Source of the DNA: Azonexus sp.
GTDB taxonomy: Bacteria; Pseudomonadota; Gammaproteobacteria; Burkholderiales; Rhodocyclaceae
Direction of reading: 5' to 3'
DNA: 44,049 bases
NCBI GenBank assembly: GCA_030691385.1
Contig: JAUYEI010000096.1
Location: 1-44,049, forward strand
Below are positions 10,771-29,372 of this stretch, piece by piece (position 1 is the first letter of the stretch; every line of letters starts with the position of its first letter). The notes under the pieces are model-generated. The model saw only the letters and a program-made list of their open reading frames with translations. It did no database searches and had not been told where the DNA came from. The position numbers and the translations under genes are program-made.

Positions 10771-10806
10771 CACGGTCAACCGGAAAAAATGCCTAAAAAT
10801 CAAAAG
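10771..10806 (+). repeat. Dispersed 36-bp repeat, copy 1
   Basis: Core CACGGTCAACCGGAAA followed by an AT-rich tail with GCC in place of the usual GGCC. It lies between the NtrC-like sites and the sigma-54 promoter of nirB. Six further copies lie at 14649, 18763, 22759, 24237, 27055 (minus) and 29025 (minus). Confidence 0.85.
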
Positions 10807-10810
10807 CCTG
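10798..10810 (+). promoter_or_regulatory. Possible IHF site in the nirB control region
   Basis: AATCAA-N4-CTG matches the IHF consensus WATCAA-N4-TTR at all but one position. It lies between enhancer and promoter, where a DNA bend is useful for sigma-54 activation. It overlaps the tail of repeat copy 1. This is a short degenerate motif in AT-rich DNA, so it is only suggestive. Confidence 0.35.
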
Positions 10811-10816
10811 ATTAGC

Positions 10817-10832
10817 TGGCACACTGATTGCA
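10817..10832 (+). promoter_or_regulatory. Sigma-54 promoter of nirBD
   Basis: TGGCAC-N5-TTGCA is an exact match to the sigma-54 -24/-12 consensus. The expected start is near 10844, giving a leader of about 100 nt before the nirB ATG at 10946. With the NtrC-like sites upstream, it indicates nitrogen control. Confidence 0.82.
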
Positions 10833-10945
10833 AGAGCCCTGCAGGTACAGCGAATCAACCGCCAACGTCGGCGGTTCGATGGCAACGACGTCATGCGCTG
10901 AAATAAATTTTGCACCCTAGTGTGCGCGCAACGTTGGAGTCAACC

Positions 10946-27054: not shown

Positions 27055-27090
27055 TATTTGGTTTTTTGGCATTTTTTCCGGTCGACCGTA
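27055..27090 (-). repeat. Dispersed 36-bp repeat, copy 6
   Basis: On the minus strand this reads TACGGTCGACCGGAAA followed by AAATGCC and an A-rich tail. It lies in the 81-bp spacer between pgk and pyk, in the direction of transcription. Its core differs from the others by one base. Confidence 0.85.
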
Positions 27091-27121
27091 GAAGCCATAC
27101 TACGGCCGACTTCTTGCCGCA

Positions 27122-28306
27122 TTATTTCGCGGCGCGTTCTTCCAGAACCTGAATCGCCGGCAGGGTCTTGCCTTCGAGGAATTCCAGGAAGGCGCCACCA
27201 CCGGTCGAGATGTAGCCGACGTCGTCGTGGATGTGGAACTTGGCGATGGCGGCCAGCGTGTCGCCGCCGCCGGCGATCGAGAAGGCTTCGGAGTGGGCGA
27301 TGGCCGAGGCCATCATCTTGGTGCCACCGGCGAACTGCGGCAGCTCGAAGACGCCGACCGGGCCGTTCCAGACGATGGTGCCGGCGTTGGCGATGATCTG
27401 CGACAGCGTCGCGGCGGTCTTCGGGCCAACGTCGAGGATGCGGTCGTGGGTCGCGACATCATCGACCGAAATCTTGTTGGCGCGGGCCAGGGCCGAGACT
27501 TCGTCGGCAACGACGACGTCGACCGGCAGCGGCACTTCGGCGCCGCGTTCCTTCATGATGTCCATGATGGCGTGCGCTTCCTTGACCAGGTCGGCTTCGG
27601 CCAGCGAGTCGCCGATGCGCTTGCCGGAGGCGAGCAGGAAGGTGTTGGCAATGCCGCCGCCGACGATCAACTGATCGACCTTGCTGGCCAGCGATTTGAG
27701 AATGGTCAGCTTGGACGACACCTTGGAGCCACCGACGATGGCCACCAGCGGGCGCTTCGGATTGGTCAGGGCCTTGGTCAGGGCGTCGATTTCGGCGCCC
27801 ATCAGCATGCCGGCGCAAGCCGCCGGGGCGTACCTGGCGATGCCGTGGGTGGTCGCTTCGGCGCGGTGGGCGGTGCCGAAGGCGTCGTTGACGTAGACGT
27901 CGCAGAGCTTGGCCATCTTCTGCGCCAGTTCCTCGTTGTTCTTCTTTTCTCCCTTGTTGCAGCGGCAGTTTTCGAGCAGCACGACTTCGCCTGCCTTCAC
28001 TTCAAAACCGCCGTCTACCCAGTCGGTGACCAGACGCACCGGCTTCTGCAGCAACTGGCCGAGGCGCACGGCGACCGGCATCAGCGAGTCGTCAGGCGTG
28101 CATTCGCCTTCGGTCGGCCGGCCGAGGTGGGAGGTGACCATGACGGCGGCGCCCTTTTCCAGGCAGTACTTGATCGACGGCAGCGAGGCGCGGATACGGG
28201 TGTCTTCGGTGATGTTGCCGGCTTCGTCCTGTGGCACGTTGAGGTCGGCGCGGATGAAGACGCGCTTGCCCGATACGTCGAGGTCGGTGAGTTTGATGAC
28301 GTTCAT
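27122..28306 (-). CDS. pgk: Phosphoglycerate kinase
   Basis: This enzyme interconverts 1,3-bisphosphoglycerate and 3-phosphoglycerate with ADP/ATP and is needed for both glycolysis and the Calvin cycle. The 394-residue protein shows the N-terminal RADLNVPQD, the substrate-site TSHLGRP, ENCRCNKGEKKN, the VAIVGGSKVSSKL hinge segment, and the nucleotide site GPVGVFE with a C-terminal STGGGAFLEFLEGK. AGGAG lies 6 bases before the ATG. It is the only pgk in the window, so the cbb operon must rely on it or on a copy elsewhere. Confidence 0.96.
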   Translation of the reverse strand: MNVIKLTDLDVSGKRVFIRADLNVPQDEAGNITEDTRIRASLPSIKYCLEKGAAVMVTSHLGRPTEGECTPDDSLMPVAVRLGQLLQKPVRLVTDWVDGGFEVKAGEVVLLENCRCNKGEKKNNEELAQKMAKLCDVYVNDAFGTAHRAEATTHGIARYAPAACAGMLMGAEIDALTKALTNPKRPLVAIVGGSKVSSKLTILKSLASKVDQLIVGGGIANTFLLASGKRIGDSLAEADLVKEAHAIMDIMKERGAEVPLPVDVVVADEVSALARANKISVDDVATHDRILDVGPKTAATLSQIIANAGTIVWNGPVGVFELPQFAGGTKMMASAIAHSEAFSIAGGGDTLAAIAKFHIHDDVGYISTGGGAFLEFLEGKTLPAIQVLEERAAK

Positions 28307-28325
28307 GGAGTTCTCCTGATTTGGC

Positions 28326-29372
28326 TTAAGTAATGGATTCTTGCGTCCAGTGTTGTGACCAGTAATCGGCCACTTCGAGCATGCGGTTGGCGAAGCCCCA
28401 TTCGTTGTCGAACCAGACGAAGAGGTTCACCAGATGGGTGCCGGCGGTACGCGTCTGGCTGCCATCGACAATGGCCGAATGCGGGTCGTGATTGAAATCG
28501 ATCGAGGCGTGTGCTGCTTCGGAATAGGCGATCAGTTTTTCCAGCGGGCCACGCGCGGCGTCGGCGAGCAGGGCGTTGATGCTGTGCGCCGAAACCGGGC
28601 GCTGGGTGCTGATCGTCAGGTCGATGGCCGAGACGTTGGTTGTCGGGACGCGGATGGCCTTGGCCAGGACCCGGCCAGCCAGTTGCGGCAGCAGGCGCTC
28701 GATGCCACGGGCCAGCCCGGTCGATACGGGAATGATCGACTGCATGGCCGAGCGCGTCCGGCGCAGGTCGTCGTGGTGATAGCCATCGATCAGCGGCTGG
28801 TCGTTCATGACCGAATGCAGGGTCGTGAGCAAGGCCTGTTCGACGCCGACTTCGCGGTCGAGCAGATCGAGGATGGGGACGATGGCGTTGGTCGTGCACG
28901 AGGCGGCCGAGACGATACGTTCGGCCCCGGTCAGGGTGTGCTGGTTGATGCCGGCGACGATGGTCGCATCGACATCGTCGCCGCTGGCACCAGGGTGCGA
29001 AAGGAGCAGGCGCGGACAGCCGGCGTTTATGAATTTGGCCAAATTTTCCCGTTGACCGTAGGAACCGGAGCATTCGACCACGAGATCGATGTCGCGCCAG
29101 TCAACGGCCTCCGGCGTGCGGGCGTGGCTGATGCGGATGGCCCGGCCGTCGATCAGCAGTTGGCCATCGGCGATATCGACGCTGCCGGGAAAGCGGCCGT
29201 GCGTCGAGTCGAAACGCGTCAGATAGGCCATGCTCTCCAGATTGGCCGGCTCATTGATGGCGACCACCTGGAGATCGTGCGCGGCCGGGGATTCCTGCAG
29301 CGCACGCAGAAAGCAGCGACCGATACGGCCATAGCCGTTGATGGCAAGACGCAGGGGGAAGTTATGGGGCAC
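28326..29372 (-). CDS. epd: Erythrose-4-phosphate dehydrogenase (GAPDH family)
   Basis: Epd oxidises erythrose-4-phosphate to 4-phosphoerythronate for pyridoxal phosphate synthesis. The 348-residue protein has a GAPDH fold (INGYGRIGR, ASCTTNAIVP) but carries the Epd signatures LSHPGASGDDVDATIV, HSVMNDQPLIDGYHHDDLRRTR and FNHDPHSAIVDGSQTR. The residue after VVAIN is Glu, as in E. coli Epd. No ATG is available near the start; I chose GTG 29372, just before the Rossmann strand, and TTG a few codons upstream is an alternative. A terminator for gap lies just upstream. Residues 105-116 are encoded by repeat copy 7. A plain glycolytic GAPDH is less likely. Confidence 0.85.
   Translation of the reverse strand: MPHNFPLRLAINGYGRIGRCFLRALQESPAAHDLQVVAINEPANLESMAYLTRFDSTHGRFPGSVDIADGQLLIDGRAIRISHARTPEAVDWRDIDLVVECSGSYGQRENLAKFINAGCPRLLLSHPGASGDDVDATIVAGINQHTLTGAERIVSAASCTTNAIVPILDLLDREVGVEQALLTTLHSVMNDQPLIDGYHHDDLRRTRSAMQSIIPVSTGLARGIERLLPQLAGRVLAKAIRVPTTNVSAIDLTISTQRPVSAHSINALLADAARGPLEKLIAYSEAAHASIDFNHDPHSAIVDGSQTRTAGTHLVNLFVWFDNEWGFANRMLEVADYWSQHWTQESIT
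29025..29060 (-). repeat. Dispersed 36-bp repeat, copy 7, inside epd
   Basis: On the minus strand this reads TACGGTCAACGGGAAA followed by ATTTGGCC and an AT-rich tail. It is read in frame as YGQRENLAKFIN (Epd residues 105-116), in the same frame as copy 3 in cbbT. E. coli Epd, as I recall it, also has a YG-x-RE stretch here, so the local protein sequence is compatible with the repeat. Confidence 0.65.

Follow-up and report, generated by a model that had tools for sequence, protein, structure and literature searches.

A dispersed word of about 40 bp with phased AT tracts, a probable DNA uptake sequence in Azonexus and its relatives

The contig of Azonexus sp. presented above (JAUYEI010000096.1, 44,049 nucleotides, hereafter the window) carries seven copies of a dispersed repeat of about 40 bp. 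We conclude that this word is probably a DNA uptake sequence, a self-recognition tag by which DNA from close relatives would be taken up. This conclusion draws on a strong consensus, an origin by substitution, presence on both strands and in both genes and spacers, AT tracts in helical phase and dialects that differ between genomes around a shared inner word. It draws further on the scarcity of the word in acquired DNA and on its abundance in some related species and rarity in others. We also consider it likely that the word represents a third, independently evolved uptake language of bacteria, in a Dechloromonas-type genus of Rhodocyclales, with CGGTCRAC and phased AT tracts as its elements, dialects acting as gene-exchange barriers, repeated loss and a new receptor.

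The original prediction described seven copies of the repeat in the window, and these are real. A search with YACGGTCAACCGGAAA at up to 3 mismatches returned exactly 7 matches at the predicted places (4 perfect, 3 with one change), while shuffled controls gave a mean of 0.5 and a maximum of 3, and none of 100 shuffles reached 7. At this threshold the copies are indeed confined to 10.7-29.1 kb of the window, which encodes nitrogen and carbon assimilation, but this confinement is incidental. Indeed, the genome scan that had been proposed to tell a repeat family from an operator of carbon and nitrogen genes yielded genome-wide scattering. Scanning the host genome, a 3.45-Mb draft in 129 contigs, for the 15-bp core ACGGTCNACCGGAAA with no more than 1 mismatch gave 492 hits (260 forward, 232 reverse), and the reversed word gave 1. 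This corresponds to about one copy per 7 kb, and the copies per 20-kb stretch have a mean of 3.2 and a variance of 3.4 (20 stretches), as in a random scatter. Hence the carbon/nitrogen block is not special, and restriction to such genes is rejected.

The copies are both genic and intergenic and occur on either strand. In a 462-kb set (the 444 kb used below for the anatomy of the unit plus one stretch), 39 of the 73 full-type copies lie in predicted genes, both sense and antisense. The other 34 lie outside predicted genes, an over-representation in spacers given that 86.6% of this DNA is called coding; these labels are approximate, as they come from a home-made gene caller that placed at least one gene of the window on the wrong strand. 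Along DNA oriented by GC skew (75 stretches), the two strands carry 424 and 447 copies, or 262 and 264 when the AT tract is included, so there is no strand bias with respect to replication direction and a strand-polar, Chi-like signal is rejected. Genome-wide scatter, sense and antisense copies in genes and equal strand numbers together make an operator of the operon unlikely, and they tell equally against the RNA-processing element that had been suggested. The third suggestion, a protein-binding site, does not hold for a regulator of carbon and nitrogen genes but fits a site read by a DNA-uptake machinery.

The consensus of the unit is strong. Allowing for 3 mismatches, ACGGTCAACCGGAAA matches 98 places in 444 kb of the host genome: 34 are perfect, 30 differ at one base, 12 at two and 22 at three. 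The reversed core gave 0, 0, 0 and 11 sites at 0, 1, 2 and 3 mismatches. Across the 76 sites that differ at no more than 2 bases, the information profile covers some 40 bp, starting 6 bases ahead of the A of the core and ending 33 bases past it, and it drops to near zero beyond; the repeat had been described as about 36 bp long, and the shared core stands although the unit is longer. It consists of the core, in which the 8-bp inner word CGGTCRAC is embedded, and of downstream AT tracts that occupy positions 13-18, 24-29 and 31-34 from the core A, about 11 bp or one helical turn apart. Flanks and inner word mostly read CCACGGTCAACCGGAAA in the host genome. The AT tract at the second position is present in 72 of the 73 full-type copies, and also at 49 of 152 further CGGTCRAC words of the 462-kb set, compared with 8.7% of random places. 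The copies in the window are as follows, with two weaker candidates:

10766 to 10805, plus strand: copy 1 of the ~40-bp unit, its extent taken from the information profile, core with 0 mismatches; between a YbiB-like gene (9729-10718) and nirB (10946-13384).
14644 to 14683, plus strand: copy 2, core with 0 mismatches and a AAATTTGGCCAAATTT-like tail; 3′ of nirD (13565-13873).
18758 to 18797, plus strand: copy 3, 1 mismatch, inner word CGGTCTAC; within the transketolase gene, codons HGLPEKWPEIK.
22754 to 22793, plus strand: copy 4, 0 mismatches; begins on the final base of rpe (22002-22754).
24232 to 24271, plus strand: copy 5, 0 mismatches; at the 3′ end of the minus-strand gene for class II fructose-bisphosphate aldolase (24260-25324).
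27056 to 27095, minus strand: copy 6, 1 mismatch; between pgk and pyk.
29026 to 29065, minus strand: copy 7, 1 mismatch; inside a gene of the erythrose-4-phosphate (E4P) dehydrogenase/glyceraldehyde-3-phosphate dehydrogenase (GAPDH) family, gap-free in 19 aligned relatives.
17816 to 17843, plus strand: weaker candidate site with the inner word CGGTCGAC and an AT tract downstream, flanks differing.
1474 to 1501, minus strand: weaker candidate site, likewise with CGGTCGAC, a downstream AT tract and differing flanks.

Two of the seven copies thus lie within genes (18763 in transketolase, 29045 in the E4P-dehydrogenase/GAPDH-like gene); the gene at 29045 matches both the E4P-dehydrogenase and the GAPDH models with scores below the curated cut-offs. 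The locus of copy 6 holds an inverted pair in relatives such as G053 and G068 (G numbers designate genomes), and its left arm is degenerate in the host genome.

To distinguish substitution from insertion we compared the gap-pgk-pyk-fba region with 20 relatives. At the site at 29025 the CGGTCRAC word is kept in all 14 motif-rich relatives (as defined below) and lacking in all 5 motif-poor ones, with no alignment gap in any of these 19; 6 of the 14 carry the host dialect or nearly so, and the other 8 keep TACGGTCRACG. At coding sites in general, none of 665 cross-genome comparisons showed a gap, 270 of them with relatives devoid of the word (8 distinct positions, in 4 of the 6 genes compared). 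Copies in genes were therefore altered by substitution and not by transposition, which contradicts, for these copies, the small mobile repeat that the original prediction had also offered. A repetitive extragenic palindromic (REP)-like or miniature inverted-repeat transposable element (MITE)-like repeat that spread and then decayed would indeed account for hundreds of near-identical, strong-consensus copies enriched between genes. However, orthologous word-free genic sites show no gap, the unit sits in the reading frames of core enzymes, and the dialects share an inner word while their flanks vary, so we hold such an element to be extremely improbable as a general explanation and reject it for the genic copies. 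A similar gap test served to argue that the uptake signal sequences (USS) of Pasteurellaceae are not insertions (PMC1626085).

The distribution of the word follows the genus, and within it a clean split. NCBI taxonomy places Dechloromonas in Azonexaceae, Rhodocyclales, Betaproteobacteria, and our sample holds 71 genomes of the larger genus, many of them drafts. Of 72 genus genomes (host included), 12 hold 123-621 copies of the 15-bp core and the rest 0-82, compared with 0-3 in 48 genomes from other families of the order; outside the order, the Desulfobulbus and Streptomyces genomes checked and one of two Rahnella genomes gave 1-4 copies. Word counts and inspection showed CGGTCRAC to be shared by other genus members with differing flanks. 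The inner word by itself separates genomes poorly because of its high background. A dialect-blind word, CGGTCRAC-N15-WWWW, joins it to the AT tract 15 bases downstream. This word has 532-1785 copies in 36 of the 71 genomes (motif-rich) and 9-159 in the other 35 (motif-poor), and its reversed control never exceeds 31. Elsewhere in the family, 118 genomes from other genera contain 0-27 copies, close to the control level.

In every one of the 18 motif-rich genomes profiled, AT content peaks some 15 bases past the inner word, and the flanks vary from genome to genome. Since the profiles were anchored on CGGTCRAC, the constancy of this word across dialects is partly built in, and dialects altering it would escape. 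The AT peak is absent from the motif-poor G065, G047 and G035 and from a pooled set of four further motif-poor genomes, the last two sets comprising only 5 and 15 words. No alternative dialect word stood out among the top 10-mers and 12-mers of 80 kb each from G065 and G047. In a four-gene tree with uneven supports, in which G063, known from a short contig, has a very long branch, the motif-poor G065, G047 and G029 fall among motif-rich genomes, which suggests that the word was lost repeatedly within the genus.

Another reading is that the word once served in uptake and has ceased to work in the host species. A former uptake sequence would be in keeping with a comEC gene that looks frameshifted in G035 and, in both G002 and G044, split by ~33 kb, and with residual sites at least 5-fold above the reversed control in 10 of the 35 motif-poor genomes. 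On the other hand, a single open frame of 782 aa contains the ComEC domain of the host, and 64 of the 98 sites described above have at most one change, so that any loss would be recent. We consider this explanation highly improbable. In the motif-poor G046 (contigs C10, C14 and C25) and G048 the remaining sites look clustered in patches, as judged from partial lists of places; these patches may stem from import out of motif-rich species.

The analysis covered three regions that look acquired. One of them, in G044, is uninformative because this genome is motif-poor. In the other two, the word is absent or nearly so. The 33.7-kb lower-GC insert that appears to split comEC of G002 has no full-type copy, compared with 7 in 30.5 kb of flanks (Poisson P0 4e-4), and 0 compared with 11 bare inner words, a deficit that composition could explain in part. 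In the complete genome G068, one copy was found in 120 kb (six stretches at 2.70-2.92 Mb, GC 0.53-0.62), compared with 30 copies in 200 kb (ten stretches at 2.045-2.425 Mb). Among ten reading frames of this motif-poor, low-GC zone there is a TraI_2 gene, and most other genes tested are metabolic. Between the 89 places of a stricter 20-base word in G068, two intervals, ~409 and ~425 kb long, stayed empty. Sampling each with ten 20-kb stretches showed the first to contain the 30 copies just given and the second to hold the motif-poor zone beside stretches of normal density. The sign of the GC skew changes between 2.43 and 2.50 Mb with normal copy density on either side; the word is hence not excluded from the terminus, and terminus exclusion is rejected on this ground and on the density of the first gap.

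These observations also bear on two other functions for a dense genomic word. The first is a binding site for a chromosome-organising or global regulatory protein, acting in nucleoid structure or regulation, and a strict core scattered genome-wide could serve an abundant DNA-binding protein. We find it very unlikely, since density is normal near the GC-skew switch of G068 without any strand bias, more than half of the copies lie in predicted genes, the word is nearly absent in 35 of 71 genus genomes and shifts in dialect among the others, and it is missing from acquired DNA. The second is a self-mark for some other process, such as Chi-like recombination and repair, segregation, or a defence that spares marked DNA. 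Chi and segregation signals are strand-polar. Scarcity in acquired DNA is what such a mark would predict too, but the word has no polarity, and defence alone leaves dialects with phased AT tracts unexplained; we regard this second possibility as very unlikely.

If the word is an uptake sequence, extracellular DNA that bears it would be bound and imported in preference to other DNA. The word would then be spread and maintained as the imported DNA recombines. The inner word would be recognised by a receptor at the cell surface, probably one of the type IV minor pilins, and the AT tracts may help the DNA to bend or melt on entry, as proposed for the USS of Haemophilus. Biased import followed by homologous recombination would favour the alleles that the receptor prefers, leading perfect and one-off copies to accumulate. 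A change of receptor would shift the dialect, and where competence or specificity is lost the word would decay. What is observed here are the sequence patterns; from them we infer a preference in uptake, a receptor and a function for the AT tracts.

Parts of the machinery expected for such a process are widespread. A ComEC domain is found in 66 of the 71 genus genomes, host included, and a pilin of the ComP_DUS family (PF16732) also in 66 of 71, compared with none of 14 control genomes. Among the 36 motif-rich genomes, 5 have a comEC gene that looks split, short-framed or truncated by the end of a contig, and in 1 no comEC was found; among the 35 motif-poor genomes the corresponding numbers are 8 and 4. 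The state of comEC shows no clear difference between the two groups, a comparison confounded by draft assemblies.

Several observations argue against an uptake sequence. First, comEC, the ComP_DUS pilin and FimT occur in motif-rich and motif-poor genomes alike, and pilin alignments inspected by eye gave no marker of the two groups (usable frames at 29 of 30 and 21 of 30 loci). Second, inverted pairs are few: 18 genomes together yielded 8 divergent pairs with a distance of 17-22 bp for an expectation that we estimate at ~1, some of the 8 sharing a locus. Third, when the gap test is not restricted to coding sites, 403 word-free comparisons comprise 264 without gap, 113 with small gaps and 26 with gaps of at least 10, and random windows are less gapped (14133 without, 1107 small, 99 of at least 10); this version of the test is weaker because spacers, which often contain gaps, are over-represented among the sites. 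Finally, a low-GC insert is expected by its composition to hold fewer such words, and 20-kb stretches free of copies also exist elsewhere (L153, L237).

Two families, Pasteurellaceae and Neisseriaceae, are known to have uptake sequences (PMC12616744). USS of Pasteurellaceae are of the Hin type AAGTGCGGT and the Apl type ACAAGCGGT, with the inner core GCGG (PMC1626085, PMC12616744). Our repeat resembles them in its core followed by AT-rich segments about a helical turn apart, in its total length (~30-40 bp for USS), and in being genome-wide, of strong consensus, not inserted and of types that follow subclades. It differs in its inner word, CGGTCRAC instead of GCGG, in a core that is neither AAGTGCGGT nor ACAAGCGGT, in AT tracts that begin farther from the core and in its host, a member of the Betaproteobacteria. 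The predicted receptor of USS is ComN, whereas that of the repeat, probably a minor pilin, is proposed from sequence patterns. The DNA uptake sequences (DUS) of Neisseriaceae form eight dialects read by the receptor ComP (PMC3630211, PMC12616744). The repeat shares with them a host in Betaproteobacteria, dialects around a short constant inner core, genic and intergenic copies, and a ComP_DUS-family pilin in most genus genomes, motif-rich and motif-poor alike. Unlike the repeat, DUS are described as continuous words of up to ~13 nt around GCCGTCTGAA, with the inner core CTG and without AT tracts, and in DUS genomes inverted pairs acting as terminators are frequent, where few pairs are found here. 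As its core matches neither, we file the repeat in neither family. We met no earlier report of an uptake sequence for Dechloromonas, Rhodocyclaceae or Rhodocyclales in a search that left most subscription papers and all preprints outside and whose broader queries showed none among the matches listed.

If our conclusion is correct, a third group of organisms, living in the environment, would use such words, and self-recognition in DNA uptake would have evolved more often than the two known families imply. Since the AT tracts match the design of USS despite a different core, the idea that they ease the mechanical entry of DNA becomes testable by convergence. The 36 motif-rich and 35 motif-poor genomes of a single genus would furthermore constitute a natural experiment for the receptor and for gain and loss of the system, and the word predicts which transforming DNA these bacteria should accept best.

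A few observations were made along the way. The FimT-like and ComP_DUS-like minor pilins and their spacing are highly variable between genus genomes (for example, G000:C103:2147-4669; L175-L234). In G002, G044, G018 and G019, comEC appears to be broken at almost identical positions (codon ~26-28 of its Competence domain), possibly marking a recurrent integration site. The two interruptions of ~33 kb are:

G002, contig C33, 109.5-143.3 kb: interruption of comEC, the first half of the split gene being a weak match (20.9 bits, under the cut-off).
G044, contig C1, 2218.6-2251.2 kb: interruption of comEC.

In five further genomes (G005, G029, G036, G056 and G060) the ComEC Competence match begins at residue 11-12, with a short open frame of 499-571 aa, as if the protein had been broken or re-started at one common place.

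The window also holds a MITE-like element of ~240 bp, at 25366-25607 and at 13888-14128, whose terminal repeats begin with AACCTTGAAACCTCAGTTG; further copies are found in L055, L059, L060, L067-L069 and L071, and 14 ends with CTTGAAACCTCA occur in 444 kb. The copy at 25366-25607 is missing in relatives, whose alignments cross the place with a few bases' overlap. Some ends of this element bear GTTGACCGC, the complement of GCGGTCAAC.

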